From: a virus
Length of the DNA: 64,000 bases
Virus record (IMG/VR): IMGVR_UViG_3300021419_000004
Coordinates: 1-64,000 of that record
Direction: 5' to 3' (one strand)
Of the stretch, positions 32,620 to 57,354 are shown piece by piece. How positions within the stretch are numbered: the first letter of the stretch is position 1; every line of letters begins with the position of its first letter. Position numbers and translations under genes: made by a program. Under the pieces are notes generated by a model. The model was not told where the DNA came from. It searched no databases and saw only the letters and a list, made by a program, of their open reading frames with translations.

Positions 32620-34503
32620 ATGAGCTACGATGATCTGGAGCCAGGTCTGGATGGGCCTGATGATGGCGGCATCTTCGGCGACCAGGGAGATGTGCATCAG
32701 CGCCTGATGGGCGTTGGCGACGGCATGGGCGGTATGGGGGGCGGTCCGCCGCTCCCCAGCGCCTCGGCTCCCAGCCTCATGCAGCAGCACAGCCTGGGCA
32801 GTGACACCGTGCTGCGGGTCCAGCGGCGGGATGAGCACGACGGGCGCATCAAGGATCTGGGCACCTTCCCGGCCACGCTGAACTCCGACGCGCTGGTACG
32901 CCGGTTGGGACGTCCGGGCTCCTACATCCTGACGCCGGTCAATGGCATCGGGCAGCGCGCGGGCACACCCATCTCCTTCGATGTGGACCCGGCGCACGAG
33001 GCCCTGCGCAGCCTTCCTACCGTTGCGGAGAGTGCAGCCGGCGGAGGCGCCAGCCTGGGTGAAGTGCAGCAGCTGGTGGCCGCCACCATGGCACCGCTGC
33101 TCCAGCAGCTCCAGCAGCGAGAGGCCCGCCTGGACGCGCACGAACGGCGCCTTCTGGAGCAACAGTCGAAGCTCGAGGACGCCCGTGTGGCGACGCTGAC
33201 CCTGGCCAACGACGCACAGATCAACGCCGCCGACAAGGCCATGGACGCAGCAACGGCCCGCATGCAGGAGCAGCAGCAGTCCTTCGCGCAGACCATGATG
33301 GCCCTGCAGGAGGCCTCTGAGCAGCGCCACCAGCAGGCCATGGAGCAGCAGAAGGCCGCCAACGATGTGCTCCTGACCCGCATCATGGCCATCAACGACG
33401 CCGACCAGCAGCGGGCGAAGGACTGGATGGCGATCCAGCAGCAGGCCCTGCAGCAGCAGCAGGAAATCCTGGCCAGCAACAACCAGATGATGATGGCTCG
33501 CTGGGACAACGAGCGGGCCTCCGAGAAGGAGCGCATGGAGCGCGAGGACACCAGGCGCCAGCAGCAGGCAGCCTCGGACCTGGAGCGCCAGCGCGAGCAC
33601 AGTCGCACGGTCCTCGCGCTCCGCGAGCAGCAGGCCGAGGCGGCCTCGGGCATGGGTTCTTTGGAGAGGCTGGTGGAGCTCAAGAAGGTCATGGACCAGC
33701 TGGGGGGCGGCGAAGCGGGCGAGAAGCCCCTCATCAGCCAGATCGTGGACGGCCTCAAGGAAGTGGCCGGCCTCGGAACGGAGCTGGTGAAGGCCAGCAA
33801 CGCCGCGAACGACGCTGAGGTGGGCATCGAAGAGGAGATGGCCCGGGAGCAGGCGCTGCACCAGCAGGCGCAGCAGGAGCAGATGCTCCGACAGCAGGCG
33901 CTGATGCAGCAGCAGGCAGCACTCCAGCAGCAGGCGCAGGCGCAGCCACCCCAGCACACGCCACTGGCCCTGCCCCCTCCTGACCCCTTCGATGAGTTCA
34001 ACGCGACGGAGCTGGCGACTGCTGACCAGCAGCCTGCGAGCGTGGCGGTCGCTGCCACTGCGGCGGCTGCGGCGGACCCCTTCGCGCCGGCCGCGCAGCC
34101 CGCTCTGCCCGTGCAGCAGGCCCAGCCGGCCGCAGATCCCTTCGCGCCTTCTGCGCCCTCCACAGCACTGGCGGCGCCGGCAGTCGCGCCCCCAGCCGCC
34201 GCTTCCCGCCTGCCTGCGCAGACTCTGGCCACCGCGCGCGCGGCCTTCCGCTGGGCCGCCGGCCAGATCCTGGCGCAGCCTCCGGGGGAGTGGCAGACGA
34301 TCATCACGGGCGCCCTGGCGCAGGCGCACTCGGCCATCGTCCCCTATGTGCAAGAGGTCGGTGTGACCCAGGCCCTGGGAGAGGCGGGACTCCCTCCCCA
34401 GATCACCGCTCAGGTCATCGCGGGCATGCAGCAGAATCCCCTCTTGGCCAGCGCCCTGGAGAGCAACTACAACATGACGGTGGCCCAGCTCCGCTGGCAC
34501 TGA
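32620..34503 (+). CDS. Large Gln-rich coiled-coil structural protein, 627 aa
   Basis: Residues 1-130 are Gly/Asp-rich with a small folded part (NSDALVRRLGRPGSYILTPVNG). Residues about 145-430 are a long Gln/Ala coiled coil with two Met/Gln-rich stretches. An Ala/Pro-rich linker spans to about 530, and a helical C-terminal domain ends the protein. A scaffold or internal rod role is plausible. Leader AGAGGACGAACTCG. First gene of the late module. Confidence 0.8.
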   Translation: MSYDDLEPGLDGPDDGGIFGDQGDVHQRLMGVGDGMGGMGGGPPLPSASAPSLMQQHSLGSDTVLRVQRRDEHDGRIKDLGTFPATLNSDALVRRLGRPGSYILTPVNGIGQRAGTPISFDVDPAHEALRSLPTVAESAAGGGASLGEVQQLVAATMAPLLQQLQQREARLDAHERRLLEQQSKLEDARVATLTLANDAQINAADKAMDAATARMQEQQQSFAQTMMALQEASEQRHQQAMEQQKAANDVLLTRIMAINDADQQRAKDWMAIQQQALQQQQEILASNNQMMMARWDNERASEKERMEREDTRRQQQAASDLERQREHSRTVLALREQQAEAASGMGSLERLVELKKVMDQLGGGEAGEKPLISQIVDGLKEVAGLGTELVKASNAANDAEVGIEEEMAREQALHQQAQQEQMLRQQALMQQQAALQQQAQAQPPQHTPLALPPPDPFDEFNATELATADQQPASVAVAATAAAAADPFAPAAQPALPVQQAQPAADPFAPSAPSTALAAPAVAPPAAASRLPAQTLATARAAFRWAAGQILAQPPGEWQTIITGALAQAHSAIVPYVQEVGVTQALGEAGLPPQITAQVIAGMQQNPLLASALESNYNMTVAQLRWH

Positions 34504-34531
34504 GGGGCCACAAGGCCAGGAGAGGACGACG

Positions 34532-35611
34532 ATGAGACTGACCTTGAAGACGAAGGGCCTGGAGGCCGTGCTGGAGTTCACAGCTGCCGAGGCGGCCGAG
34601 TTCGCGCAAGCGGTGCCTGCAGGCCTGGCGGAGAAGGCGCGCCAGACGGCAGCGGCTCACCTGGCCTCCCTACTCGACCAGTGGGCAGCGGAGGACAGGG
34701 AGGCGGCGGCGGCCACACCAACCGCGCCCACCGCCGAAACTACACCGCTCAGCGCCGATCGGTTCCAGGGCCTGCTGGACCACGTTTACGCCGCCCTCGG
34801 CGCGTCTCGGGATGATTCAGTGCCCCTGGAGATGGTCTACTGGACAACGTGGAAGGAGGGTCTCCAGAACACCCGACAGCTGGATCTCATCGACTTCACT
34901 GTAGACGTGGGCGATGTGGAGGCGGTTCGGGAGATCCTCGGGCGCAGGCTGGGCCGCGCTCAGGGTGAAGTAGAGGGCGACTACCCCTTCTTCGACTTCT
35001 ACGACGACCAGGGCCGGAAGATCGCCCGTGCCTCCACTGCCCCCACTCCGGGCGTCGTCGTCGGTGAGCAAGAGGACGTGACCCTCCCGGGGCAGCCGAC
35101 GGACGCACCTGTTCCCGTCGAGGAGATCGCAGCCGCCCGCCCGCCCATCGACCCCCTGGCGCCGCCTGCCCAGCCTCCGGCCGCTGACGCCCACGCCCGG
35201 GAGACGCCCGCGCAGAAGGCTGAACGCATCTACCTCACCAAGCGGGCCAAGGCCGCTGAGACCGATCCGGCGCTGGCCGGCGGCCCGGCAGTGGATGTAC
35301 CGGCGACCCTGCAGCGCCTGAACGAGTGGATCGCCGGCTGGGTGCAGCACGGCCAGGAGCCTGACGGAACGAACCGGGTTCTCCGGCTCGCCCAGGACCG
35401 AGAGGCTGTGACTTTGTGCTCCTACCTGGGCGGCCTGGTCGGTGCCGCTGATCTCCTGGGCTGTGATCTGGCTGCCCCCGCCATCAACTGGAAGCCGGTC
35501 GGACACCATCCGTGGCAGCCTACCTGGCGGGACACCATCATCGCCGCCACGACCGTCGCTGGGACCCTTCCCATGGTCCCGTCTGAGGTGGCCGCCGCGC
35601 TCCGCAGCTGA
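34532..35611 (+). CDS. Hypothetical late protein, 359 aa
   Basis: Unrecognised. The N-terminal 60 residues are helical and Ala-rich, with a central acidic alpha/beta part, a Pro/Ala-rich linker near 195-230, and a C-terminal Trp-rich part (WIAGWVQHGQEPDG, INWKPVGHHPWQPTW). GAGAGGACGACG precedes the ATG. Co-transcribed with the coiled-coil protein. Confidence 0.78.
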   Translation: MRLTLKTKGLEAVLEFTAAEAAEFAQAVPAGLAEKARQTAAAHLASLLDQWAAEDREAAAATPTAPTAETTPLSADRFQGLLDHVYAALGASRDDSVPLEMVYWTTWKEGLQNTRQLDLIDFTVDVGDVEAVREILGRRLGRAQGEVEGDYPFFDFYDDQGRKIARASTAPTPGVVVGEQEDVTLPGQPTDAPVPVEEIAAARPPIDPLAPPAQPPAADAHARETPAQKAERIYLTKRAKAAETDPALAGGPAVDVPATLQRLNEWIAGWVQHGQEPDGTNRVLRLAQDREAVTLCSYLGGLVGAADLLGCDLAAPAINWKPVGHHPWQPTWRDTIIAATTVAGTLPMVPSEVAAALRS

Positions 35612-35679
35612 CACGCCGCGCGCCAGCGCACACACGCGTACCTGCGCGCACCCTTTCCCTACCCCCCAACGAGGACGAC

Positions 35680-36582: not shown

Positions 36583-36593
36583 CGCTTTCGACA

Positions 36594-36654
36594 GGCCGCC
36601 GGTGAGACGAGACACCGGTGGCCCTTCGACTACTCCAGCGCGGGTGCGGAGTAG
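36594..36654 (+). terminator. Tandem hairpins between late genes
   Basis: GGCCGCCGGTG pairs with CACCGGTGGCC (36594-36623), and CTACTCC pairs with GGAGTAG (36630-36654). No U-tract, so attenuator or processing signal is as likely as termination. Confidence 0.5.
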
Positions 36655-36703
36655 CCGGAGCGACGGACTGCACCGGCATGCGGCATGGCCGCTCGAGGAC
36701 GAC

Positions 36704-39004: not shown

Positions 39005-39030
39005 CGACCAAGTGACTCCCCGGCTACCTT
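39001..39030 (+). promoter_or_regulatory. Promoter of a possible small RNA
   Basis: TTGACG, 18 bp, TACCTT. The CTCCCCGGCTA segment before -10 resembles CTCCGGCTA at the next promoter. Confidence 0.45.
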
Positions 39031-39216: not shown

Positions 39217-40278
39217 ATGTCGTCTCTCGCACTGTCCTGGCTCTCCCGTCAGCATGAGCTCAACGCACCCTTCCAAGAAGGACCGCAGCGCATTGGACCC
39301 GGGGGTATCCCGGACATGAGCGACATGCGCGGGCGCCTCTTCGGCGTCCCAGGCTTCCACCGCTGGTCTGACCGCAAGAAGGTGCGCAAGCTGCGCGAAA
39401 TGGCCGAAGCCTATGGCAACGACCCGCGCATGCGCTTCTTCACGGTCAACTCGGTGCTGAGGCCGGCGGGGGCCACCGACTTCCGCAACTACCGCCAGGT
39501 GGCGGAGACCCTGCTCAAGGCGGTGCAGGACGCCGGAACGCTCGGCATCATGTACACCAACGAGCCCAATGAGCAGCTCCAGTCCCCGTGGTGGACACTC
39601 AAGGTGCGCACGGGGGACTGCGATGACATGTCTCTCTTGCTCGCTGCAATGGCGCATTCCGTCCGCCTGCCCTGGCGCTTTGTGCTGGCGGGTACTGCCC
39701 GGGGCGGACGGGCCCGATGGGCGGAGGGCGGCCGCATGCCTCGAGGCTTCCGCGCCAGCCACATCTACCTGGACCTGGGCTGGCCTCCCTTCTCCGAGGG
39801 CAAAAAGGATGCTCACGGACGCCCGGTCACCCAGTGGGCGCCGGCGGAGCCAACCCTGCGCGGTCTGCCCCTCGGGCATGACGTGGTGCTGCACGGCATC
39901 CCTGGTCAGGGACAGCGCCTGGATCTGGGCGGCGGGGTCGCCGGACACACGGCCGGGCCCTCCTGGGGCGGCTTCACGAACGGGGCCTACGGCGACTTCG
40001 GCGGCACCATCTACAGCCGCCGCGCCAACTGGGGCGACGCTGCGTTGGCGAGCAACGGATCGACCGGTGGATCGACCGGTGGATCCACCGCGGAGGAGGA
40101 GGTCTACTACCTCCAGCCGACCAACGGCGCCCTCGCCCAGCTCCAAGACAAGCCCCTGGTCGGCATCGTCGCCCGGGCTGTCGCGTCCCTGGACGCATCT
40201 CTCATCCTCGCGGAGGCCATCGGGGCAGTCATCCAGGCTGTCATCGTGTCCTACGCCCTGTCCAAGCTCAAGCTGTAA
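39217..40278 (+). CDS. Transglutaminase/cysteine-protease-like protein
   Basis: 353 aa. The GDCDDMSLLLAAMAHSVRLPWRFV block is the catalytic-Cys motif of transglutaminase-like proteins (Cys135), and SHIYLDL supplies the His (His182) and a nearby Asp. After the domain come a Gly-rich part, a repeated STGG linker (GGSTGGST) and a C-terminal amphipathic or membrane helix. In a structural module it could crosslink or process virion proteins or open the cell wall. Probably leaderless; a later Met is possible. Confidence 0.82.
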   Translation: MSSLALSWLSRQHELNAPFQEGPQRIGPGGIPDMSDMRGRLFGVPGFHRWSDRKKVRKLREMAEAYGNDPRMRFFTVNSVLRPAGATDFRNYRQVAETLLKAVQDAGTLGIMYTNEPNEQLQSPWWTLKVRTGDCDDMSLLLAAMAHSVRLPWRFVLAGTARGGRARWAEGGRMPRGFRASHIYLDLGWPPFSEGKKDAHGRPVTQWAPAEPTLRGLPLGHDVVLHGIPGQGQRLDLGGGVAGHTAGPSWGGFTNGAYGDFGGTIYSRRANWGDAALASNGSTGGSTGGSTAEEEVYYLQPTNGALAQLQDKPLVGIVARAVASLDASLILAEAIGAVIQAVIVSYALSKLKL

Positions 40279-40713: not shown

Positions 40714-41394
40714 ATGCTCGTGCCCATCAACGGTGCCTTCGGCTCCATGGACGCTGCCTACGGAGATGCCTACGGAGCGTCCTACGGCGCCAGCAGCTGG
40801 CTGGCCGAGCGCCGCCGCAACCTCAAGAAGGCCCGTCAGCGCGTGATCGCCGCCACCAAGAACCAGGCCGCCCAGGCTCAGTCCCGCGGCTACCTGGTCC
40901 CCACCTCCTCCGCCGCCCAGGCCGGTTCCGCCGCCTGGACCGGCCGGACTCGCTTCTTCCAGAAGCCCGGCTTCGTGGAGCGCTACCAGTCCCTGCCCAC
41001 CGCCGTGAAGGCAGGCACTGCGGCCATGATCCCCGGCATCGGCCCTTGGCTGGCCGCCGGCATCCTGGGCAAGAAGGTGGTCGAGGTGGGCACCAGCCGT
41101 CGCAAGGGCAGCGTCGGCACCAGCATCCGCAAGGGGCCGGGCGGAGCCACTGTCGGCCGCGGGCCTCGAGGCACCAGCGCCTACACCACTGCCAACGACC
41201 TCTACGCCGCCCAGGATGCCTTCTCCCAGGGCTACCCGGCCGAGGGCGCCGCTACCTCCTCCGAGACCGCAGTGGCTGAGGTCTCCGCACCGAGCTACGG
41301 CCTGATGGCGGTCGGCGCCCTCCTGTTGGCCGGTGCCGGCTACGCCCTCTTCAAGCGCTTCAAGAAGGGCAAGAAGAGCAAGAGCAAGAAGTAG
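40714..41394 (+). CDS. Membrane protein with Lys-rich tail, 226 aa
   Basis: A Tyr/Gly-Ala N-terminus (YGDAYGASYGASS) precedes a basic helix, a membrane segment (TAAMIPGIGPWLAAGILGKK), a Gly/Arg linker and a C-terminal membrane helix (YGLMAVGALLLAGAGYALF) followed by KRFKKGKKSKSKK. First of a run of small membrane proteins. Likely component of an internal membrane, with its basic tail facing DNA. Unrecognised. Confidence 0.76.
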   Translation: MLVPINGAFGSMDAAYGDAYGASYGASSWLAERRRNLKKARQRVIAATKNQAAQAQSRGYLVPTSSAAQAGSAAWTGRTRFFQKPGFVERYQSLPTAVKAGTAAMIPGIGPWLAAGILGKKVVEVGTSRRKGSVGTSIRKGPGGATVGRGPRGTSAYTTANDLYAAQDAFSQGYPAEGAATSSETAVAEVSAPSYGLMAVGALLLAGAGYALFKRFKKGKKSKSKK

Positions 41395-41403
41395 GAGGCA
41401 CCC

Positions 41404-42090
41404 ATGTCCGCCTGGAGCAACAGCAGCAACTGGGGGCACCCAGTCGCGGGAGCTGCAGCACCGTCTGTGGCCGCCACACCTGCGTCTTTCGCGGGCTACG
41501 GGGACCCCTTCGTGCGCCCGCAGATGGCCGGTCCGCAGGTGGCGGCCTTGGGCAGTGACGCCAAGGTCAACCGGCTGCTGTCAACCAAGGCCAGCGCCGA
41601 GCTGGCGAGTGGCTACTACAAGGGCGGCGGCGGCTACACCTACCTGTGGGACGCACCCTCGGCGACCATCACCATCGCAGCCGGGCCCACGGGCGCGGGC
41701 TCCCAGCTCTCCCCGGGGCACACCTACTACAACGCCGTGCTGACGGAGCTCTACCGCATCGGCGCTCCCAACACCTCCAGCCCCACCGGCAGCGCAGGCA
41801 GCTCGGCAGCGGCCGCCGCGGCGGACGCAAGTGGTGCCGGTGGGATCTCTGGCGGCAGCCGCTTCGCCAACATCGTCTCCGGCCTCAGTCAAGCAGCCAC
41901 GACCGCCGCGGCGCTGACCTCCCAGGTCGCCGCAGCCAAGGCGGCCCAGGCCGCCACGGCAGCGCCAGCAGTCGCAGCTCCGGCGCAGATGGCGCCGGCA
42001 ACGCCCTCGCGCCTGCCCTGGATCCTGGCCGCTGTTGGTGGAACCGTGGTTCTCGGACTCATCTTCGCCACCCTCCGGAAGCGCCGATGA
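41404..42090 (+). CDS. Tail-anchored membrane protein, 228 aa
   Basis: Gly/Ala/Ser-rich body with a Tyr-containing part (SGYYKGGGGYTYLWD, SPGHTYYNAVLTELYR), Ala-rich helix, and one C-terminal membrane helix (LPWILAAVGGTVVLGLIFA) ending LRKRR. Unrecognised. Overlaps the next gene as ATGA. Confidence 0.76.
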   Translation: MSAWSNSSNWGHPVAGAAAPSVAATPASFAGYGDPFVRPQMAGPQVAALGSDAKVNRLLSTKASAELASGYYKGGGGYTYLWDAPSATITIAAGPTGAGSQLSPGHTYYNAVLTELYRIGAPNTSSPTGSAGSSAAAAAADASGAGGISGGSRFANIVSGLSQAATTAAALTSQVAAAKAAQAATAAPAVAAPAQMAPATPSRLPWILAAVGGTVVLGLIFATLRKRR

Positions 42091-42770
42091 GTACCGCTCA
42101 GCTGGCCGGAACGGGTGGGCGCTGGGGAGCTGCGTCTCCCTGGGGTGCCTATGGCCGCGGCGGCGCTGTCCTCAGCACCGTGGGCGCCGGCCTGCAGAAC
42201 ATCGACTGGCAGCAGACCGGAGAGGCCCTGAGCCAGGCCGGCGCTGCCGGCGTCAGCATCTACAGCAACATCTCCGCCATCAAGGCTCAGCAGGCCGCCG
42301 AGCAGGCCGCAGCCAACCAACTCGCCCTCCAGGCCTCCGCGCCAGCGCCTGTTGTCTCGATTCCGACGGGCTCCGGCGTCCTGCCTTGGGTTGTGGCAGG
42401 AGTGGCAGGCCTGGGGGCTTTGGTGCTGCTGCTCCGTGGTCGCGGGAAGGGCGGCCGCCGCAAGAACCCCTATGGCGTCGAGCCGGTCACCATCATCACC
42501 GGCCTGGCCACCGGCATCTCCGCCCTCGTGGGCGCCGCCAAGGTCGGGTACGACATCCGCAGTGGCAAGCGCGCGGAGCGCATGAGCCAGACGATGGCAG
42601 CTCACCAGCAGCTGCAGGCAGCTCAGACCGCGGCCTACACCGCAGGGGCCCAACAGGCCGGCGCCGAGCTCCAGCGGGCTCAGCAGGCGCGCAGCCTCAA
42701 GACCTTCGGAGCACTCGCCGTTGTCGGCGTGCTCGTCTACCTGTTCTACAAGAAGCGGAGTTCCAAGTGA
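42087..42770 (+). CDS. Two-helix membrane protein with RRKNP motif, 227 aa
   Basis: Ala-rich helical first half, membrane helix GVLPWVVAGVAGLGALVLLL followed by GRGKGGRRKNP, an Ala/Gln-rich helix, and a second membrane helix (FGALAVVGVLVYLFY) ending KKRSSK. The RRKNP-type motif recurs in the proteins at 44.9, 48.1 and 52.2 kb. GTGA overlap with the next gene. Confidence 0.77.
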   Translation: MSTAQLAGTGGRWGAASPWGAYGRGGAVLSTVGAGLQNIDWQQTGEALSQAGAAGVSIYSNISAIKAQQAAEQAAANQLALQASAPAPVVSIPTGSGVLPWVVAGVAGLGALVLLLRGRGKGGRRKNPYGVEPVTIITGLATGISALVGAAKVGYDIRSGKRAERMSQTMAAHQQLQAAQTAAYTAGAQQAGAELQRAQQARSLKTFGALAVVGVLVYLFYKKRSSK

Positions 42771-43447
42771 ACCAGCCTCTCCAGTTCTCCCAGGATCCGG
42801 GAATGACGCCCGTCCCTCTCCCCCAGGGCCGCATGCAGATGCCGGCAGGGGCCCAGTCCGGTGGCGGCAAGCTGCCCGCCCTGCGTCCGGTGCCCCAGGG
42901 CTACATCCACGGCCGAAGTGCTGAGCTGCCCCTCGACGTGGAGGCGGATCTGGAAGGGGGGCCTGCCGTGAATGTGAAGCACCTGCTTCTGGGAGCTGGG
43001 GCCGGGTACGCCGTGGGCGGCCCTGTTGGCGCCCTGGCTGGCGGCATCGTGGCCCACATCCTGGGCAAGCGGTCGTCTCAGCACGCCTACCAGATGCCGG
43101 ACAACACCGTCGGCTATGGCGCCACCTACGGAGACGCCTGCAGCCGCTGGCAGCGCAAGTACGAGCGTTACGCCCGCAAGGGTGGCAAGCGCCGAGACAA
43201 GTGGGCCGACAAGAACTACTCCAAGGCGGCTGCTGCAGGCTGCGCCTGGACCCAGCCTGAGGGCGTCCAGCAGATGCTCCAGGGCCAGATGCCGGACGTG
43301 ACCAGCTATCAGACCCAGGGCTACCAGGAGGCCATGGCTGCGGCTGGTGGGACCGGAGTCGGTGGCGGCAACGCGGCCTCACCGGTGTTGCTGGTCGCCG
43401 GTCTGGGCGCAGCCGCGCTGGGCCTGATCTACATGTTCACTCGCTGA
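42767..43447 (+). CDS. Membrane protein with Gly-zipper helix, 226 aa
   Basis: Pro/Gln-rich start; a Gly-rich membrane segment (LLLGAGAGYAVGGPVGALAGGIVAHILG) resembles Gly-zipper helices. A Cys/Trp basic domain (CSRWQRKYERYARKGGKRRDKWADK) follows, with a C-terminal helix (VLLVAGLGAAALGLIYMF). GTG start overlapping the previous gene. Unrecognised virion candidate. Confidence 0.76.
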   Translation: MNQPLQFSQDPGMTPVPLPQGRMQMPAGAQSGGGKLPALRPVPQGYIHGRSAELPLDVEADLEGGPAVNVKHLLLGAGAGYAVGGPVGALAGGIVAHILGKRSSQHAYQMPDNTVGYGATYGDACSRWQRKYERYARKGGKRRDKWADKNYSKAAAAGCAWTQPEGVQQMLQGQMPDVTSYQTQGYQEAMAAAGGTGVGGGNAASPVLLVAGLGAAALGLIYMFTR

Positions 43448-43775: not shown

Positions 43776-44201
43776 ATGCCCTGCACCTGCCATCAACGCG
43801 CCTCCCACGGCTACCTGGGCTACCAGGGCTACGGGAATGCGCACTACGGCAACGCGGACACCGATACGCCTGAGGCCGAGTCGTCCTCCTGGGAACAGTA
43901 CGCGCCCCTGGTGACGGCAGTGGTCGAGGGCACCTCTGACCCCCACAAGCAGGCGTTGCTGTGGGAACAGCGGCTGGTGACGCTGCAGAAGGCAGGCTTC
44001 TCCCCCGAGAGCGCCGCCTACCGCAGCGCAGAGGCTCGGTACCAGGCTGCCCTTCGCGCCGCCGGGATGGAGCTCGAGGAGGAGCAGTCCACGCGCGAGT
44101 GGCGGGCCCTCGGCAAGGCTGGCATCGCTACTGGCATTGTCGTCGGTATCGGTGTCCTGGTGGCGCTGGGCGTGGCCATCGGCCGCGGAGGCAAGAAGTG
44201 A
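43776..44201 (+). CDS. Tail-anchored membrane protein, 141 aa
   Basis: Cys/Tyr/Gly-rich N-terminus (CTCH, YLGYQGYGNAHYGNAD), helical middle, C-terminal membrane helix (GIATGIVVGIGVLVALGVAIG) with RGGKK. Overlaps the next gene as GTGA. Unrecognised. Confidence 0.74.
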   Translation: MPCTCHQRASHGYLGYQGYGNAHYGNADTDTPEAESSSWEQYAPLVTAVVEGTSDPHKQALLWEQRLVTLQKAGFSPESAAYRSAEARYQAALRAAGMELEEEQSTREWRALGKAGIATGIVVGIGVLVALGVAIGRGGKK

Positions 44202-45627: not shown

Positions 45628-46347
45628 ATGAGACTGCTGAACCAGGGCATCCGCAACATCGCCGCCCGGCTGGGGATTGACCAGGCCTGGGAGGACTCCG
45701 AGGAGGCCGCCCAGGACGCCTACGAGTCCCACCACTGGGGCCACAAGCATGACGGCACCACCTTCACCGACGACCATCCGGACGCGCCGGCGGTCTCGAC
45801 GGAGATGGGCAAGCTGCTGGCGCTGGGGGTCATTCCCATCGGCAAGCGAGGTACTCCCGACCGACGGGCCGCCAAGGCCATGCACCACTGGGAGAAGCGC
45901 CTCGAGCTCAACCCGGAGAAGGTGCCGGGCGAGGATGAGGGCATCGCCGAGCTGTGGTTCAACGGCCGGAAGGACCCGCGCTGCATCGTCAGCTTCACGC
46001 CTGCATCGGAGCTCCTGCACCTGGCGCTCCCTCCCGATGAGCAGAAGCGCATGCAGGCCTACTTCCGTAGCGCGCACCTCTACCCCCTGGGCGAGCTGGC
46101 CGGTATCCGCGGTGGTCGAGCTGCTGAGGGTGATGAGCGTCAGGTTCCGGTGGCGCTCCTGGGTGAGCTCGCCTGGGTGATGTACCTCACCGACAAGAAG
46201 GGCGATGGCGTCAGTGAGTACGTGCACGGCATGGGCACGGAAGGCCGCTTGACCCCGATGCGCCCCTACCTGTGTGTCGCCGAGGATGGGTCCCTGTGGC
46301 TCGCCGGTGGCAACTACGAGGTCAAGTCCGTCGGGATCAGCGGATGA
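45628..46347 (+). CDS. Hypothetical protein, 239 aa
   Basis: Unrecognised soluble alpha/beta protein; several His residues (HHWGHKHDGTTFTDDH) near the N-terminus may bind metal. GAGAGGACGACATG leader. ATGA overlap with the endopeptidase suggests a linked function, perhaps in entry or lysis. Confidence 0.75.
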   Translation: MRLLNQGIRNIAARLGIDQAWEDSEEAAQDAYESHHWGHKHDGTTFTDDHPDAPAVSTEMGKLLALGVIPIGKRGTPDRRAAKAMHHWEKRLELNPEKVPGEDEGIAELWFNGRKDPRCIVSFTPASELLHLALPPDEQKRMQAYFRSAHLYPLGELAGIRGGRAAEGDERQVPVALLGELAWVMYLTDKKGDGVSEYVHGMGTEGRLTPMRPYLCVAEDGSLWLAGGNYEVKSVGISG

Positions 46348-46991
46348 GGCGTGGGTGGCTGTGGCTTGCGGCGGTGACGCTGCCTGCAGTCACCGGGCTG
46401 TTGGCGTGGTGGTACCGCCGCAGGACCGTCTTGTCGCTACCCGGCCAAGAGGAGAGCATCGTGGCAAAGGTCTACCAGTGGACGGAAGAGCTGATGTCCG
46501 GCACCGAGGAGACGGAGGTCGAGGGTGTCCGGGCCAAGAAGGGCGTCGTCTTCACGCCCCAGATCCTGACGGGCCTGCAGCGCCTGCGGGACGCCCTCGG
46601 GCAGGATGCCTACGGGCTCGTGGTCACCGACGGCTGGCGCACCCCTGAAGTACAGGCTGCCCGGCTGTGGAGCAAGTACCTCAAGGGCACGACCATCCGA
46701 GGCAAGTACACTCCGCCCGGCTTTGGTGCGCTCTACGCGCTCTACAAGGCCGACTGGATCATCGCCAAGCTCGAGGAGGCCGGCGCCAGCAAGAGCGCCT
46801 GGGCCAGTGTGCTCAAGAAGCTGGCGAACCAGGGCTACTACCTCAGCGACCACCAGCGGGGTGATGCCTTCGACCTGCGCACCCGCGGCATGCCCGCCGA
46901 CGACCGTGCCAAGATCCTCGCAGCCGTGAAGGCCCTCGGCGGGTCGGCATTGGACGAGGGCGACCACATCCATGTGGAGAATCTGGGATGA
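46344..46991 (+). CDS. Membrane-anchored M15-type peptidoglycan endopeptidase
   Basis: 215 aa. N-terminal membrane anchor (WLWLAAVTLPAVTGLLAWW) then RRR. The zinc site is clear: SDHQRGDAFDLR (His170, Asp177) and DHIHVEN (His210), with TDGWRTPEVQ upstream, the pattern of M15/L-Ala-D-Glu peptidases. Acts on peptidoglycan, either as a virion-borne entry enzyme or a lysis enzyme. The anchor fits a virion membrane protein or a signal-arrest endolysin. Confidence 0.84.
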   Translation: MRRGWLWLAAVTLPAVTGLLAWWYRRRTVLSLPGQEESIVAKVYQWTEELMSGTEETEVEGVRAKKGVVFTPQILTGLQRLRDALGQDAYGLVVTDGWRTPEVQAARLWSKYLKGTTIRGKYTPPGFGALYALYKADWIIAKLEEAGASKSAWASVLKKLANQGYYLSDHQRGDAFDLRTRGMPADDRAKILAAVKALGGSALDEGDHIHVENLG

Positions 46992-48059: not shown

Positions 48060-48896
48060 ATGGCCGTGCGCAAGCGCAAGACGCGCAAGAGCACCAAGCG
48101 CCGCCGGAAGAACCCGGTGCGCGGCGTTGGCACGCTCGTCCTGAACCCCCGCCGCAAGCGTCGGCGCCCGGTCAAGCGGAAGCGTCCCGTGAAGCGCCGC
48201 GTGGCAGCTCGCCGGAAGCCGGTGCGTCGCCGCAGGCCCGCCGTCCGTCGGCGCAAGGCTGTGGCTCGTCGTCGCCCGGTGCGGCGTCGTCGGCCCGTGC
48301 GCCGGAAGGCAACGCGTCGCCGCAACAGCGCCGTCTACATGCGGAAGACCAACCCCAAGCGCCGCCGGCGCAGCAAGGCCAAGGTCCGCTACAGCCGCAA
48401 GAAGAACAGCGTCCGGCGTCGCCGGAACCCGGGCTTCGCTGGCATGCTCAAGAAGATCCCCTTCATCGGCAAGCCCCTGGCCGCCATGGTCGAGGCCCTC
48501 CCCGCTGCTGCCCTGGGCGCCATCGGTGTCGAACCCACCATGATGCTCGCCAAGTTCGTCGGGCCCTACGTGCCCCAGATGAACCCGGCGATCTTCTACG
48601 CCCTGACCGGCTCCCTCCTGGCCGGCATCATCGGCTCCACCTCCTTCCTGGGCGCCGCCTTCCACAAGAAGCTGGCCATCGCGGTGGCTTCGGCTGCCGG
48701 CGGTGTCGCCTACTACAAGTGGCGGACCGAAGGGCCCATGTCGGACATGCCGACCGAGATGGCGGGTCTCCCCTCCTACTCCGGCATCGGCAACGTCCTG
48801 GGCCTCCCCGACTACGGGGACACCGGCTACGCCGTCGTGCCCATGGCAGGCCTGCACACCCAGCCCCTCGCGGGCCCCGGTGGCTACCCCCGCTGA
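48060..48896 (+). CDS. Extremely Arg/Lys-rich membrane protein
   Basis: 278 aa. The first 125 residues are protamine-like, over half Arg/Lys with RRRP, VRRRR and four NP motifs (RRKNP, LNPRRKRR, TNPKRRRR, RRRRNP). The second half is hydrophobic (IFYALTGSLLAGIIGSTSFLG; AIAVASAAGGVAYYKW) with a Gly/Pro C-terminus. A DNA-condensing tail on a membrane anchor would tie the genome to an internal membrane. Homology to known families not recognised. GAGGAGG before the ATG. Confidence 0.8.
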   Translation: MAVRKRKTRKSTKRRRKNPVRGVGTLVLNPRRKRRRPVKRKRPVKRRVAARRKPVRRRRPAVRRRKAVARRRPVRRRRPVRRKATRRRNSAVYMRKTNPKRRRRSKAKVRYSRKKNSVRRRRNPGFAGMLKKIPFIGKPLAAMVEALPAAALGAIGVEPTMMLAKFVGPYVPQMNPAIFYALTGSLLAGIIGSTSFLGAAFHKKLAIAVASAAGGVAYYKWRTEGPMSDMPTEMAGLPSYSGIGNVLGLPDYGDTGYAVVPMAGLHTQPLAGPGGYPR

Positions 48897-49009: not shown

Positions 49010-49696
49010 ATGTTCCCTTCTCTCGGCGCTCCCGGCCAGGTCGTGGCTGGCGGAAACCCCACCGCCCTCGCTCCGATGGCCCTCCCCAAGTCCGTCGTCC
49101 GCATCGGCGAGCAGGCCATCTGGTCCACCCAGCAGTACGCTGACGCGACCGCCCTGGCCCGCAACGAGGACATCCTGTTCTCGACCCCCCAGAACGGCAC
49201 CGGCCAGGGCTTCGCGGCCCCGCTGAGCCTCGCGGAGACCAACCTCCGTGAGTCCAGCCGCATCCCCGGCGGCTACGCCTACACCGTCCAGGCCATCGCC
49301 CTGCAGACCTACTACGCCGACCAGTGGGCCATCGTGCGCGCTGACGTGGCGAACCTGGTCAACAACTGCGTCCCCCAGTGGTCCTTCCTCCAGGTCCGCA
49401 TCGAGATCGCTCCCGCCCAGCTCATCGGCGCCGGCGGCGGTGTGTACGGCGACACCGCCGACACCGGTGCGGCCGACGGTGGCTCCGGCGGTTCCCGGAC
49501 CACGCTGAACAACGGCAACGGGCAGGTGTGGGTCTACCGCGCCCACCCGGTCGCCCTGCCCGCGAACAGCACCTACAACATCGTCCTGAGCTGGGGCGCC
49601 AACGCCTCCGCGGTGGACGGCGGCCAGAACAACAGCTCGCAGAACGTGCGCTGTGTCCTGCTCGGCACCTTCGAGAGCGCGATCCCCATCGCCTGA
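49010..49696 (+). CDS. Candidate major capsid protein (beta-rich), 228 aa
   Basis: Gly/Asn/Ser-rich, predicted all-beta with a variable Gly-Ala loop (GGGVYGDTADTGAADGGSGG) flanked by strands (SFLQVRIEIAPAQL, YNIVLSWG, NVRCVLLGTF). No signal peptide or membrane helix. It follows a strong promoter and leader and is followed by its own terminator, as expected for an abundantly made coat protein. Single jelly-roll is my guess; not proven. Confidence 0.72.
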   Translation: MFPSLGAPGQVVAGGNPTALAPMALPKSVVRIGEQAIWSTQQYADATALARNEDILFSTPQNGTGQGFAAPLSLAETNLRESSRIPGGYAYTVQAIALQTYYADQWAIVRADVANLVNNCVPQWSFLQVRIEIAPAQLIGAGGGVYGDTADTGAADGGSGGSRTTLNNGNGQVWVYRAHPVALPANSTYNIVLSWGANASAVDGGQNNSSQNVRCVLLGTFESAIPIA

Positions 49697-49798: not shown

Positions 49799-50461
49799 AT
49801 GAGCAAGCCCTTCGTCCCGGCCTGGCTGCAGGGCCAGTACGGCCAGCAGGTCCAGTTCCCCAAGGACTACCGCGCCTCCCTCTCCCCTCCCACCCTGGGT
49901 CAGATGGCCCAGGCTGCCGCCAACGCACAAGCAGCGCAGCAGGCTCAGGCAGCTGCGCAGGGAGCACCCATGCATCCCCACATGACCGGAGCTCCCACCT
50001 GGCAGCGCGAGCAGGTCTACTACCCGACCCCGCTCCTGCCGGAAGCCCCCAACCTGGCCAAGACGCCGCGCGACATCGTGCTGCGCTTCACCAACCAGGC
50101 CGTGGGTCAGGAGATCTTCCTGCCGCTGCAGGTGGACATCCCTGGCGTCATCTACGCCGTCTCCGGAGGTGCCTACACCACCGACGACTCCAACCTGCCC
50201 GTGGGCCGTGATCCCCTGGACACCTTCCTGGTCCGCATCGAGCGCAACAACGGCGACCGCTTGCAGACCCAGGCGGGGTTGGGCTCGGCTGTCGTGGGCC
50301 CCGCCCGCTTCCCCCGTCTGCTCGGCGGCCCTGGCTATGTGTTCCAGCGTGGCGCTTCGCTGCGGGTGGCGGTGACGCCCCTGATCGCCAACCTGGACAT
50401 CACCATCTGCTGCTGGATCATGGAGATCCGCGGTCCCACCAACATCTCGGCCGTGGGCTGA
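49799..50461 (+). CDS. Second beta-rich capsid-type protein, 220 aa
   Basis: The first 80 residues are Ala/Gln-rich and flexible; the rest is all-beta (EIFLPLQVDIPGVIYAVSG, FLVRIERNNGDRLQT, RGASLRVAVTPLIANLDITICCWIM). A likely partner or minor capsid protein of the 49.0-kb product. AGGAG before the ATG. No tail homologues recognised. Confidence 0.7.
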   Translation: MSKPFVPAWLQGQYGQQVQFPKDYRASLSPPTLGQMAQAAANAQAAQQAQAAAQGAPMHPHMTGAPTWQREQVYYPTPLLPEAPNLAKTPRDIVLRFTNQAVGQEIFLPLQVDIPGVIYAVSGGAYTTDDSNLPVGRDPLDTFLVRIERNNGDRLQTQAGLGSAVVGPARFPRLLGGPGYVFQRGASLRVAVTPLIANLDITICCWIMEIRGPTNISAVG

Positions 50462-50472: not shown

Positions 50473-50955
50473 ATGAACACGATGTTCCCCCACACCGTCG
50501 GCATCACGCCGGGGCTCAACAACACCATGGCGCTGGGCCTGGGCCTGTACCCGGATGCCACGCAGTCGATGAACTACGACAACGAGAGCAACTCGCCCTC
50601 CCCGGGCGACACCCTCACCGGCGGCACCTCGGGTGCCACCGGCACCGTCATCGGCGTCTCTCCCCTGGTGGCGGCGGGCTCCCGCAACGTCTACCTGGCG
50701 GATGTGGTCGGCACCTTCCAGAACAACGAAGTGCTGAGCGTCGGAGCCACCACCATTGGTGATGCCAACGGCACCAACACCTCCTACGACCCCAACACCG
50801 ACGACCCCCTGGTCAGCATGTACTTCGTGGACGTGGCCCCCAACGGGGCGGTCCAGGGGAACAAGGGCGACATCGCCATCTTCCTGGGCGGTGCCACCGC
50901 AGCCTACTACGGCTGTGACGGCGGCTCCGTCTGGCGGCAGTTCACCCTCGTCTGA
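50473..50955 (+). CDS. Gly/Thr-rich virion-type protein, 160 aa
   Basis: SPGDTLTGGTSGATGTVIGVSP and YLADVVGTFQNNEVLSVG resemble short repeats common in phage surface proteins. Mostly beta. Probable capsid decoration or spike base. AGGAGG before the ATG. Confidence 0.7.
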   Translation: MNTMFPHTVGITPGLNNTMALGLGLYPDATQSMNYDNESNSPSPGDTLTGGTSGATGTVIGVSPLVAAGSRNVYLADVVGTFQNNEVLSVGATTIGDANGTNTSYDPNTDDPLVSMYFVDVAPNGAVQGNKGDIAIFLGGATAAYYGCDGGSVWRQFTLV

Positions 50956-50963
50956 TCTGCTAT

Positions 50964-50997
50964 GAGCACTGCCCTGGGGTATCTTGGGGCAGTGCTC
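50964..50997 (+). terminator. Hairpin terminator after the capsid cluster
   Basis: GAGCACTGCCC pairs with GGGCAGTGCTC, a perfect 11-bp stem with a 12-nt loop; no U-tract. Confidence 0.55.
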
Positions 50998-51065
50998 GCG
51001 TGGCTGCGGCCACCTCCGGCCGCCTCGCGCGGCCTCTCCTCTCTCTGGACCTTGGAGCGCTCCCC

Positions 51066-51809
51066 ATGAAGCCGAAGCCGACCGGTCAGCCCGTGATGCC
51101 TGTGGCAGCTCCTACTCCGACCTCTCCAGTGGTCGGGGCCCATGCCCTCCCCGGCCCCAGCCTTGCGGGCCACGGACAGATGGCCGGCCCCGAGCATCTG
51201 GCCGGCAACGTCCAGGGAGCTGGACGGCATCCCTTCTACGGCTACCCGAACCTGTGGGCAGGCGCCGATGCATCGGCGCCTGCTGAGGCAGGAAAGGAGA
51301 TCCGGGCCTTCTACGGGGAGACCCTGGTTGTCCCTGCAGCAGCCTGGGAGACCAACCCGGCCAACTTTGAGCCGGACACGCCGGACGACGTGGTGGCCCA
51401 GTACATCTGGGAGGGCCCGCTGCTGGACTTGCGGAAGGACCTCAAGGGCTCCTTCGGCAACGGCCTGCACGAGGCGACGACCATCGGCCGAGCTGGCAGC
51501 TACGGCTCCGGCGTCAAGATGACCATGCTCGCCCGCATCGAGGGCATCAACATCCCGGACTATCCGGAGACCCTCCGGGTGTTCAGCCGGGAGGCCCTCA
51601 GCCCCTTTGACTCCCGGGACATTCAGACGGTCACCGAGTGGCAGGAGATCTCCACGGACTGGTGGTCCGGGGGCGCTGCCGTCAACCTCACCTGGAGCCC
51701 CCCGGGCGCCCCCATCCGCTTCTGGCGCGTCTACCTGCGCCTGGACCAGGCCTCCGGAACCGCGCCTGCGGACACGCCCCTGCTCCGCCTCCAGCCCAAC
51801 GCCCAGTAG
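51066..51809 (+). CDS. Hypothetical virion-type protein, 247 aa
   Basis: The N-terminal 85 residues are Pro/Gly-rich and probably flexible; the C-terminal domain is beta-rich and Trp-containing (WEGPLLDLRKDLKG, MLARIEGINIPDYPETLRVF, IRFWRVYLRLDQASG). Unrecognised. Followed closely by the 124-aa gene. Confidence 0.72.
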   Translation: MKPKPTGQPVMPVAAPTPTSPVVGAHALPGPSLAGHGQMAGPEHLAGNVQGAGRHPFYGYPNLWAGADASAPAEAGKEIRAFYGETLVVPAAAWETNPANFEPDTPDDVVAQYIWEGPLLDLRKDLKGSFGNGLHEATTIGRAGSYGSGVKMTMLARIEGINIPDYPETLRVFSREALSPFDSRDIQTVTEWQEISTDWWSGGAAVNLTWSPPGAPIRFWRVYLRLDQASGTAPADTPLLRLQPNAQ

Positions 51810-51818
51810 GACAGAACC

Positions 51819-52193
51819 ATGCCTTTCGAAGGATCGGAACAGTGGGGAGCTACCCGGGTCGCATCGGCGCAGACCAGCCAGGAGCGTGAGATCAGCGCAC
51901 TGGCTGGCGGCTCCGACTACACAGGCCAGACCCAGGCAGTCAACAACCTGCCGCACCATACCCTCTACATCCGGCAGGACTCCGGGGATCAGCTGTGGGA
52001 CGTGACTGTCGAAGTGCTGCACTCCACCGGCACTTGGCGCCCCATTGACGAGTTCACCATGACCGGCATTGGCGGACCGACGCTGTTCCGCGAGTACCGC
52101 GTGGTGGCGGAATCCATCCGCGTCGAAGTCTCCAACCCGCCTGTGGGAGCACCCTCGGGCGGTTGGTACATCCTCTCCTCCTTCTCGCTGTAG
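51819..52193 (+). CDS. Beta-rich virion-type protein, 124 aa
   Basis: Predicted beta sandwich (HTLYIRQDSGDQLWDVTVEVLHSTGTW; LFREYRVVAESIRVEVSN; GWYILSSFSL). Size and composition suit a penton or spike subunit. Unrecognised. Confidence 0.7.
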   Translation: MPFEGSEQWGATRVASAQTSQEREISALAGGSDYTGQTQAVNNLPHHTLYIRQDSGDQLWDVTVEVLHSTGTWRPIDEFTMTGIGGPTLFREYRVVAESIRVEVSNPPVGAPSGGWYILSSFSL

Positions 52194-52202
52194 GAGCTCT
52201 CC

Positions 52203-53015: not shown

Positions 53016-53053
53016 GGGCAGGAGAGGACGGGGAGCCCTGATCGAGGTCTCCT

Positions 53054-53656
53054 ATGGCAGGCAGCAACAACTTCCAGGGCCCCGTCATCCTGACGGAGCT
53101 CGACAGCTACTTCGCCTGGGGGCGTCAAGGCCCGGGGGTGTCGAGCCACGTCCGCGTCTACCGAGTGGACTACGACCCGAATGGAGTGCTCGCAGCTCCT
53201 CGGGGTAGCTGGGCTCTCCGGGACGATGCGGGGCAGGTGGCCGCCTACCTGAACCAGGATGGTGCCTCGACCTGGGCCAAGCTGGTCCCTAACGGAGGAG
53301 GCACCGCCGGCCTGGTGATGCCCCTGGAGAAGGAACTGCTGCCTTTGGGTGGGGATGACATCACGGACTCCGTGAGGGTCAATGCAGCGGGCACCATAGT
53401 CGAGGTGCTGTTCTACTGCAGCGTGGCCTACACCACGGCCGGCTCTTTCACCATCGACGTGCAACTGAACAGCGTCAGCGTGCTCAGCGCTGTGGTGGAC
53501 GGCACGACTATTCCGGCACTCCCCGGGGTGCTCACGGCGCCGCTGGCGGCATCTACGCCCCTGGCCGCGGGGGATGTCCTCTCAGTGGTGCTTTCCAGTG
53601 ACAACGCAGACCTGGCTGGGGCCGGGCTCACGGCTGTTTTTCGGACGGAGGCCTGA
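53054..53656 (+). CDS. Beta-rich spike/capsid-type protein, 200 aa
   Basis: All-beta, Gly/Ser/Val-rich (EVLFYCSVAYTTAGSFTIDVQLN; LAAGDVLSVVLSSDN). Resembles short fibre or head-decoration domains. Its stop is next to the spike gene start. Unrecognised family. Confidence 0.72.
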   Translation: MAGSNNFQGPVILTELDSYFAWGRQGPGVSSHVRVYRVDYDPNGVLAAPRGSWALRDDAGQVAAYLNQDGASTWAKLVPNGGGTAGLVMPLEKELLPLGGDDITDSVRVNAAGTIVEVLFYCSVAYTTAGSFTIDVQLNSVSVLSAVVDGTTIPALPGVLTAPLAASTPLAAGDVLSVVLSSDNADLAGAGLTAVFRTEA

Positions 53657-53657
53657 G

Positions 53658-55196
53658 ATGGGCGACTACAAGAGCAGCCGTGATGCAGGTGCCAAGAGCC
53701 CGGCGTCCCCTACCCGGATCGGAGCTTCGACCGACAACCAGGTGCGCGGCCAGTTCAACACCGGCGCCACAGGCATCATCACCGGCGGCCGTGGCTCCGT
53801 AGATGCGGATCCGGCCAAGTTCCAGCTCGCCGCTGGCGAGGGCTGGGTGCGCGTGAACACCACCAACCCGGACGACCCTGAGCAGATCCGGCTGGTGTGG
53901 GATGCAGTGACAGGCATTGACCCGCTCAACAAGGCAGGGCCCGGCGCGGCCATCAGCTACGTGTGGGCCAGCCTACCCACGGTCTATTCAGGCGAGGTGG
54001 TCACCGCTGAGATCACCCAGACACAGCCCAGCGACTACCCAGACCCGGGAGACCCTACGCCTTCGGAGTTCCGGGAAAAGGTCTACCTCGGTTTCGTCGT
54101 CTTTGAGTCCTTCCTGGGCATCGTATTGGCCTTCGTCGTCAACGTCCGGGCAGCCCTGAACGTTGCTGCCCAGCTCGCCGACCTCAGCGCTTCCCTGGGT
54201 TCCCTCCGGGTGCAGGATGGCGAGGTCCGGGCCATCGGCGCACTCCAGCTCGAGCAGGACGCCGGCGTCTTCTACGCGGAGGGCGCCAACTGGGTAACCT
54301 CGGAGCTTGTGCCTTCGGTGGTTGATGCTGCAGCCATCTCTCCCCTGCTTGGCGGGACCGGCTACCGCAGTGGCGCCAACGATGGGCGCTTCTCGGTGAC
54401 TCCGGGCCCGCCCACGACCTCGCTGGATCCCACGCTCTATGACGACGGGAGCGGCACTCCTCGGACGGTCCCGGCAGGCCAGGTGACCATCCAGCGCATC
54501 TACTACAATGTGACCAGCCCTGGGCACCTGTTCATGTATGGGCAGGAACTCTACGAGAGCCTGGCGGAGGCGCACGCCAACATCCTCACCGGTCCCTTGG
54601 AGGACATCCCTCAGTTGCGGGCGGAGGATTGGGTGTTGGTGGCTCAGGTTGCGGTGGTGCAGTCGGCTACGGACCTCACCGACCCCGAGCAGGCCCTGGT
54701 CTACAACGCGTTGCCCTCAGGGAAGCTCAGCCTCGAGGCCGATCCGCCTGCGATGCCGGCCCCCAGCGGCATCGTGGGCACGGCCACCAACTTTCCCTCT
54801 GGGGGTGGAGCGATTGAGTTCGCCAACTTCGGTGCGGTCACCGGCCCTGGTGCAGGCGCCTTCACGCTACCGGTGGACGCCTACATCGTCGCTGTGGTCT
54901 ACACGTTCAGCCACACCAATCCCATCAACATCGGAGCCGGTGAGTCCATCACCTTGACCGCGGGCCTCTTCGTGCCGGGCGCGGCGTTGACCACTGCCAA
55001 CTACACGCCTGAAGCAACCACTGAACAGATCTGGGACAGCAGCTTCTCCGGCACGCACCCGATCTCCGTGGTGCAGCCGACGGATCCCATCTTGGTGAAC
55101 GCGGGGACCCCCATCGGTATCCGGACCGTGGAAAGCGGTTCAGTGACCCCTGCCAATGCTGACCTATTGGCCACGCTGTGGTATAGACCAGCATGA
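53658..55196 (+). CDS. Putative spike/fibre receptor-binding protein
   Basis: 512 aa. The segment with GWVRVN...IRLVWDAVTG, then KVYLGFVVF...AFVVNVRAALNVAAQLADLSASLGSL and a later GVFYAEGANWV, follows the order of N-terminal modules of tailed-phage fibres or head spikes. The C-terminal 150 residues are all-beta (PVDAYIVAVVYTFSH..., TPIGIRTVESG). Probably a trimeric host-recognition spike. Family match is by pattern only. Confidence 0.68.
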   Translation: MGDYKSSRDAGAKSPASPTRIGASTDNQVRGQFNTGATGIITGGRGSVDADPAKFQLAAGEGWVRVNTTNPDDPEQIRLVWDAVTGIDPLNKAGPGAAISYVWASLPTVYSGEVVTAEITQTQPSDYPDPGDPTPSEFREKVYLGFVVFESFLGIVLAFVVNVRAALNVAAQLADLSASLGSLRVQDGEVRAIGALQLEQDAGVFYAEGANWVTSELVPSVVDAAAISPLLGGTGYRSGANDGRFSVTPGPPTTSLDPTLYDDGSGTPRTVPAGQVTIQRIYYNVTSPGHLFMYGQELYESLAEAHANILTGPLEDIPQLRAEDWVLVAQVAVVQSATDLTDPEQALVYNALPSGKLSLEADPPAMPAPSGIVGTATNFPSGGGAIEFANFGAVTGPGAGAFTLPVDAYIVAVVYTFSHTNPINIGAGESITLTAGLFVPGAALTTANYTPEATTEQIWDSSFSGTHPISVVQPTDPILVNAGTPIGIRTVESGSVTPANADLLATLWYRPA

Positions 55197-55228
55197 GGCG
55201 AGTCGCGCCGTAGCGCGAAGGAGATTCC

Positions 55229-56389: not shown

Positions 56390-56391
56390 GC

Positions 56392-56769
56392 ATGGACGAC
56401 AAGGAAGTCCGAGACCAGCTGTTCATCGCCATCCGCGAGGGCAACGAGGCCAACAAGGCCATGGCCCAGGCCATGCAGGCTGTCGCCACCGCCGTGAGCT
56501 CCATTGGGGAGACCCAGCGAGAGCACACACGCAGCCTGGACGAGCACTCGCTGACGGTGGACCGGCTGGTCACTACCATCCAGGCGCGCCAGGCTATCTG
56601 GAAGGAGATGATCGACACGGTGAAGGACTACAAGGTGCTCAGCGGCATTGTCATCGGGATCATCCTGACTGTGGCTGTGCTGGGCCCTCTCGTCATGGCA
56701 TCCTTGCCTTCGACTCTTTCCACCTTGGGGGTTGAGGACGCCGTGCCGGCGCCTGCGGAGATTCCATGA
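56392..56769 (+). CDS. Coiled-coil protein with one membrane helix, 125 aa
   Basis: N-terminal helical coiled coil (residues 1-70) and a membrane helix (VLSGIVIGIILTVAVLGPLVMA), acidic-Pro C-terminus. The layout suits a holin- or spanin-like function or a virion membrane protein. Overlaps the next gene as ATGA. Confidence 0.74.
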   Translation: MDDKEVRDQLFIAIREGNEANKAMAQAMQAVATAVSSIGETQREHTRSLDEHSLTVDRLVTTIQARQAIWKEMIDTVKDYKVLSGIVIGIILTVAVLGPLVMASLPSTLSTLGVEDAVPAPAEIP

Positions 56770-56960
56770 GCCAGCTTGACCCGACTCCCATTCAGGTGAT
56801 GCAGAACGCCGTTGCGCGCGCTGCCGAGAAGGAGCTCAAGGCCCGAAAGACCGCCTCGGCAGTGCTCGCCCAGGTGCTACCGGATGAGGACAGGCAAGCG
56901 CTGGAGGAGAGGCTCAAGGAAGGCTCCCCTCTCAAGCTCAAGCCCATCACCCGCCACTGA
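56766..56960 (+). CDS. Small basic helical protein, 64 aa
   Basis: Ala/Lys-rich helix (VMQNAVARAAEKELKARKTASAVLAQVL). Overlaps the previous gene as ATGA. Unrecognised. Confidence 0.7.
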   Translation: MSQLDPTPIQVMQNAVARAAEKELKARKTASAVLAQVLPDEDRQALEERLKEGSPLKLKPITRH

Positions 56961-56970
56961 GGAGTCTCCC

Positions 56971-57354
56971 GTGGGCAACCCTGCAGTCGATGCCACCTGT
57001 CCCATCCATTTCTACCAGGGAGACCCATCCTCTTGGGCGCTGGGGCTCCACTACGGAGACGCCGGGATCGCGGTGGGTGCCTCTCAGATCACCCAGTACG
57101 ACTTCTCCCCGGAGGAGCCCGTTGCGTCTCTCCTGACGGACCTGGGGCCCATCGCCATGCAGGACTACTCGCTGCAACTGGGGGGCGCTGCAGCCGGCGC
57201 GTACCTCCACAGCCAGATCGCTTCCAGGCCCGGCGCCTGGTTCGACTGGTATAGGGCCATGGTGGACCCTCAGCTACGCACAGCTGCGCAGCAGGTGGAG
57301 ATCCAGGCTGGGGTGAGGGACGCCCTACTCCATGGGGTCCGTGGGTGTGTCTGA
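56971..57354 (+). CDS. Hypothetical protein, 127 aa
   Basis: GTG start with GGAG upstream. Cys/Gly-containing alpha/beta protein (LGLHYGDAGIAVGASQITQYDFS). Last rightward late gene; its end overlaps the leftward 87-aa gene. Confidence 0.7.
   Translation: MGNPAVDATCPIHFYQGDPSSWALGLHYGDAGIAVGASQITQYDFSPEEPVASLLTDLGPIAMQDYSLQLGGAAAGAYLHSQIASRPGAWFDWYRAMVDPQLRTAAQQVEIQAGVRDALLHGVRGCV

Follow-up and report, generated by a model that had tools for sequence, protein, structure and literature searches.

SSIP-1 is a tailless phage whose particle contains a membrane and two types of capsid protein (PMC6356626, PMC4958249), arranged with T=49 around a 44-kb genome (PMC6260650, PMC6356626, PMC4958249). 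Sphaerolipoviruses encode FtsK/HerA packaging ATPases (PMC8328091), and Helvetiavirae was moved in 2025 to the new realm Singelaviria (PMC12714852). Here we analyse 64,000 nucleotides of viral DNA (the window), which are bases 1–64,000 of the IMG/VR record IMGVR_UViG_3300021419_000004, and in particular its late module at 32,620–57,354. We show that three late genes are homologous to genes of a set of related records, that the gene order is shared, and that no tailed-phage hallmarks are detectable. Very probably, the record holds most of the genome of a double-stranded DNA phage of the SSIP-1 kind, with a tailless icosahedral particle, a shell of single vertical jelly rolls and an internal membrane. 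The source record (68,459 bases) is linear, has no end repeats and is incomplete: its left end cuts a uracil-DNA glycosylase (UDG)/DNA polymerase A gene, so genes are missing from it. A codon-model gene call over the whole record gave 101 genes (W1–W101).

The virion cassette and its relatives

In the relatives, the cassette begins with a coiled-coil protein, a transglutaminase, tail-anchored small proteins, a ‘GGxY’ protein and a Lys/Arg-rich protein, and continues with the capsid candidate MCP1, a second beta protein, a wall enzyme and spikes. The window genes W58 (39217–40278), W68 (45628–46347), W74 (48060–48896), W75 (49010–49696) and W76 (49799–50461), on the plus strand like all late genes named below, follow the same order, several members of this match being placed by character and position only. 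Profiles built without any window protein were run on 423 proteins from the window, part of SSIP-1 and the relatives. W58, a transglutaminase-like enzyme with a C-terminal membrane helix and the marker gene of the cassette, matched the transglutaminase profile of eight relatives, SSIP-1 gp34 included (E = 1.7e-14; hhalign probability 98%). W68, whose C-terminal ‘GGxY’ domain is conserved in the relatives’ cassette, matched the profile of six relatives (E = 2.7e-7, next non-member 0.09; hhalign 91%). W75 matched the MCP1 profile (E = 7.4e-6, next 0.21), the best of 2,000 W75 shuffles reaching 0.024; against an earlier MCP1 profile with one member fewer, run on 200 proteins, its E-value was 4.6e-9. 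In hhalign, W58, W68, W74 and W75 each ranked first of the 101 window proteins for their own family, with a low probability for W75 (14.5%) and 86% for W74. Because bias-corrected HMMER does not support W74, its rank may be owed to Lys/Arg composition. W76 shared the first hhalign rank for one second-capsid profile out of two, which is not significant, and its profile scores were weak. At the level of sequence, these comparisons show that W58, W68 and W75 are homologous to proteins that stand in the same order in the relatives, and the transglutaminase also to that of SSIP-1.

SSIP-1 has the gene anatomy of the window, and the seed for this group was a weak match between the transglutaminases of the two (E = 7e-4 in a small comparison). 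With an alignment of these two proteins, a search of 398 Pseudomonadota genomes led to G234:C85 (E = 4e-13), an 18.5-kb contig (1–18527) of tandem 12,532-base units (98.3% identity across 5,995 compared bases); it encodes a G2P-type Rep and an integrase alongside the virion cassette, and is a small rolling-circle relative. A scan of IMG/VR with the three transglutaminases returned a 94-kb contig (G402) and SSIP-1 itself (G403). A degenerate DNA pattern for Q[ST]P-x8-GDCDD[MH], run over 2.9 million contigs, matched seven, six of which encode homologous transglutaminases (E = 4e-22 to 7e-31) adjoined by similar small membrane proteins, with the rest of the cassette in the flanks; in G404 the transglutaminase lies at one contig end and the capsid genes at the other. 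One pattern match, G410 (L047), was rejected as a relative: its site lies off this transglutaminase family, and terminase and portal are present. A further search of 369 genomes found G573:C366, a degraded copy interrupted by a transposase-like gene; this copy (L067 826–8628) encodes an MCP1-like protein of 329 amino acids (aa) and has two MCP2-like domains in one frame. Besides SSIP-1, there are thus nine new relatives, comprising seven IMG/VR contigs of 37–129 kb (G402, 94 kb; G404, 37 kb; G405, 37 kb; G406, 129 kb; G407, 80 kb; G408, 43 kb; G409, 41 kb) and the two Pseudomonadota genome contigs. Record lengths are not genome sizes here: the larger contigs may be partial or may include flanking host DNA.

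Other searches returned less. Single-protein scans of IMG/VR with W75, W58 and W8 gave no match, nor did a scan of genome contigs with W76 or an over-specific transglutaminase pattern. Phages gave no tblastn match to W75, W58, W11 or four beta proteins joined together, and an integrase scan found distant recombinases only. Most transglutaminase matches in bacterial genomes were set aside as other proteins, encoded in long frames (often ~1,700 aa) and scoring more weakly. When two of the group’s transglutaminases were compared with 50,697 phage records, the only matches were SSIP-1 and one pleomorphic archaeal virus, with no tailed phage among them. The archaeal match is Geoglobus acetivorans pleomorphic virus 1 (BK065156.1 7809–8129; 30% identity, E = 2e-5), another membrane virus in which, judged by sequence, a similar transglutaminase also occurs.

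Tailed-phage hallmarks, packaging and the capsid fold

The initial annotation had seen no terminase, portal or tail gene in the late module, and this picture extends to the whole incomplete record, where the terminase profile PF03237 and the portal profile PF04860 were silent while matching in six and four controls, respectively, and in the tailed contig G410. Both profiles were also silent in nine of nine cassette-bearing virus records searched (~574 kb, SSIP-1 and the window record included). No structural PHROG (HK97-fold capsid or tail) was found among the 36 late proteins scanned, in which a very divergent protein could escape; few general Pfam families matched (transglutaminase core, M15 peptidase, helix-turn-helix). 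Could the virus nonetheless be tailed (Caudoviricetes), either because its head and tail genes have diverged very far, or because the missing part holds its head and packaging genes, the module being accessory? The contig is cut, with a polymerase truncated at its left end, and among the early genes there are matches to families found in tailed phages; yet the absence of structural PHROGs from all 36 late proteins, the nine related records without detected terminase or portal, one of them a complete known tailless phage, and a capsid family that models as a beta barrel make this very unlikely. Rather, the missing hallmarks, together with the analogy to SSIP-1, suggest a tailless particle, and the membrane-protein content, by the same analogy, points to an internal membrane.

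Three relatives encode HerA-type (DUF87) ATPases of ~555 aa with repeated C-terminal motifs. In SSIP-1, no FtsK/HerA-type ATPase scored above the cut-off, and its virion ATPase gp40 is RecA-like (AAA_25). W11 was considered as a packaging ATPase and set aside as Sak4-like.

The beta-rich proteins that the initial annotation had listed as capsid candidates at 49.0, 49.8 and 51.1 kb are present (W75, W76 and W78), and the first belongs to the family at the capsid position. Its AlphaFold model, made from nine sequences, is mostly beta with one helix and of low confidence (predicted local distance difference test, pLDDT, 44.5; predicted template modelling score, pTM, 0.43). Its best solved matches are jelly-roll capsids, with VIA matches to Sulfolobus polyhedral virus 1 (SPV1; Z 8.5), satellite panicum mosaic virus (7.5), PR772 (6.7), PRD1 (6.5) and KHP30 (6.1). 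A model of the G409 MCP1, from ten alignment rows including the window protein and closer relatives (pLDDT 56.3, pTM 0.50), matched SPV1 (Z 9.2; 155 residues, 3.9 Å), HHIV-2 (7.5), SH1 (7.2), P23-77 VP17 (7.1) and HCIV-1 (7.0). Foldseek found no PDB match below E = 0.001 for the capsid-family models, and at the level of sequence the MCP1 and MCP2 alignments had only chance-like matches in the PDB. Matches listed for the W75 model in BFVD were CRESS-virus capsids and further proteins with a beta barrel, a result that we judge consistent with a jelly roll and uninformative on kinship. HK97 capsids were not among the structural matches listed, which is not taken as proof. W75 and most relatives are 202–247 aa long (one 329) and form a single barrel in the weak models, favouring, without proving, a single jelly roll for the MCP1 family.

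These models bear on whether the virus might instead be a tailless double jelly-roll virus (tectivirus, corticovirus, autolykivirus or FLiP-like). The PRD1 and PR772 coat proteins are among the VIA matches (Z 6.5–6.7), and many membrane proteins are a common anatomy. However, given the length and one barrel of W75 and most relatives, the single-barrel capsids nearest to the better model, and separate beta proteins standing one after another, we consider this kind of virus very improbable. The tailless membrane-phage reading of the initial annotation, which had named tectivirus- and sphaerolipovirus-like groups, is largely supported, on its sphaerolipovirus rather than its tectivirus side insofar as weak models show the family as one beta barrel.

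A different single jelly-roll lineage, SPV1/Portogloboviridae-like with one capsid protein, might have only the transglutaminase and accessory genes in common with SSIP-1. Both models have SPV1 as their best structural match, the window has no significant match for a second capsid protein, and the capsid-level link to SSIP-1 is not significant. In contrast, two and in some cases three beta proteins are kept in the relatives, several of which have two successive related ones after MCP1, and SSIP-1 has the same gene order, so that we regard a separate lineage as unlikely. In G402, a 533-aa gene that looks homing-endonuclease-like by eye (record 50568–52169) separates MCP1 from the next beta protein.

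Several results weigh against the SSIP-1-like particle that we favour. No capsid candidate links SSIP-1 significantly to the window, the sequence link to SSIP-1 being the transglutaminase: SSIP-1 proteins scored 0.9 or worse against the MCP1 profile, gp46 reached 0.009 against one relative and gp47 0.02 against G402 gene B32. The models are weak (pLDDT 44.5 and 56.3) and Z-scores of 7–9 are middling; an unrelated peptidylglycine monooxygenase (PHM) with a similar barrel reaches Z 7.1, so SPV1 alone stands out by score. W76 is a candidate second capsid protein, placed there by position. Finally, no FtsK (PF01580) or HerA (PF01935) ATPase was found above the cut-off in the incomplete window record, nor with the relatives’ profile. 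On balance, family, position and the weak fold evidence suggest a capsid role for W75.

Membrane proteins, enzymes and the rest of the record

The late module comprises 37 called genes (W50–W86), all rightward except two short, doubtful minus-strand calls. At its start, W50 (32620–34503) encodes a 627-aa, Gln-rich coiled-coil protein, named from sequence character; it is in this character that it resembles SSIP-1 gp33 and the relatives’ coiled-coil genes upstream of the transglutaminase. The at least eight membrane-helix proteins with basic tails noticed at first reading are there: a hydrophobic helix and then a short net-positive tail end W58, W60–W63 and W65–W67 (39.2–45.6 kb), and W74 (48.06–48.90 kb) comes in addition. 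Such tail-anchored, basic-tailed proteins make up 8 of 36 late proteins and are absent from the 61 that the record encodes outside the module (Fisher p = 2e-4). By hydropathy, a C-terminal membrane helix is predicted in W60 (40714–41394; tail KRFKKGKKSKSKK), W61 (41404–42090; tail RKRR), W63 (42767–43447), W65 (43776–44201; tail GRGGKK) and W66 (44198–44884; tail TRRKKR), up to three hydrophobic segments in W62 (42087–42770; tail KKRSSK), and two in W67 (44881–45618). W74, assigned by composition and position, lies directly upstream of MCP1, as in the relatives; Lys and Arg form 53% of its first 125 residues, its Lys/Arg-rich N-terminal half carries RRNP motifs, and a hydrophobic segment follows. 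It is presumed to be a DNA/membrane linker. Motifs of the form [KR]-(x)-NP occur in basic stretches of W59, W62, W67, W74 and W80 (40.3–53.0 kb), seven in the late module against 2.3 expected from shuffling, and the relatives show them too.

Both enzymes of the initial annotation were recovered. W58 has a transglutaminase domain (PF01841, E = 2.4e-5), and W70 (46341–46991), presumed to act in entry or lysis, matches Peptidase_M15_3 (E = 7.8e-6). The membrane anchor once claimed for this M15 peptidase depends on the start codon: from the automatic start at 46,461 there is none, and an in-frame ATG at 46,341 adds an N-terminal membrane segment (MRRGWLWLAAVTLPAVTGLLAWWYRRR), so that anchoring is plausible if translation starts there. 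Further downstream, W78 (51066–51809) is beta-rich and, from its position and size relative to SSIP-1 gp47, a possible further capsid protein. W81 (53054–53656) is presumably a spike-associated beta protein (E = 0.0025 with a profile of the relatives’ spike-like proteins), and the beta-rich, 512-aa W82 (53658–55196) is presumed, from position and sequence character, to be a spike or receptor-binding protein.

From these features, we infer how the particle might be built. W75 would be one capsid protein, with the second presumably being W76, W78 or both. The proteins with a C-terminal anchor and a basic tail would sit in the virion membrane, W74 would link DNA or membrane to the shell, and W81 and W82 would form the spikes. 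For the transglutaminase-like protein, with its membrane anchor, possible tasks are the cross-linking or processing of proteins of the virion or the cell wall, and the M15 peptidase would open the wall for entry or lysis.

Among the leftward genes at 0–27 kb are some for replication and recombination, including the polymerase with a Hint (intein-like) insert, a Dda-like helicase, a second helicase, a Sak4-like protein, an exonuclease V-like protein, DNA methyltransferases and a sigma-70-like factor. The polymerase, cut by the contig end (window 3–3629, minus strand), is of family A with an N-terminal uracil-DNA glycosylase domain. An integrase at 58.1–59.0 kb makes the phage possibly temperate. 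A small protein at 57680–57970 (minus strand) has a MopE-type putative metal-binding motif (PF11617, best E = 3e-10); proteins with this motif are associated with Myxococcota and similar bacteria, making it a possible host hint. Past the window end (record 64227–68341, minus strand), two large proteins of 703 and 664 aa, neither matching a PHROG, have stretches that resemble, by eye, the Trp-containing repeat of the SSIP-1 structural protein gp41.

Comparison with known systems

The virus seems to make its particle with a gene set that had been known from the tailless, membrane-lined SSIP-1 alone. Related sets occur in records of ~12,500–129,000 bases, so that the particle type is more widespread, and may hold larger genomes, than is apparent from isolates. 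Among 50,697 phage records, the SSIP-1 capsid proteins had no match other than SSIP-1, and we found no description of large SSIP-1-like viruses in the open-access literature, which was not searched in full. The window and its nine relatives place the orphan SSIP-1 in a group that can be recognised by its gene cassette and has a marker gene by which further members can be sought. This bears on the genome size limit of a membrane-lined single-jelly-roll particle, on viruses overlooked when annotation relies on tailed-phage hallmarks, and on the scope of Singelaviria. We see a roughly even chance that the group is an undescribed, broad lineage of bacterial viruses in which one single-jelly-roll, membrane-lined virion cassette serves replicons from ~12.5 kb, with a rolling-circle Rep, to more than 100 kb, with other replication genes, several-fold past SSIP-1, some without a recognisable FtsK/HerA ATPase or terminase.

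Of the described viruses, the archaeal virus SPV1 (Portogloboviridae) is the best structural match to the capsid family and was compared on the capsid only. In the Sphaerolipoviridae/P23-77 group (Helvetiavirae, Singelaviria), with known genomes of 16–30 kb, the capsids of SH1, HHIV-2, HCIV-1 and P23-77 resemble the capsid-family model (Z 6.0–7.5), with no sequence similarity found; the FtsK/HerA ATPase typical of that group was not found in the incomplete window record. SSIP-1 differs from the window in being a complete 44-kb circle rather than an incomplete 68-kb record, and the capsid proteins of the two are not linkable by sequence. Unlike SSIP-1, the window encodes PolA, a Sak4-like protein and a Dda-like helicase, whereas SSIP-1 has the virion RecA-type ATPase gp40. 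In both, terminase and portal are undetected and an integrase is present, and SSIP-1, like the window, encodes a transglutaminase with a C-terminal membrane helix (gp34) just downstream of a coiled-coil protein, many C-terminally anchored small proteins, the hydrophobic-helix protein gp44 followed by the structural proteins gp45–gp47 (210–256 aa), and, later, the large structural protein gp57.

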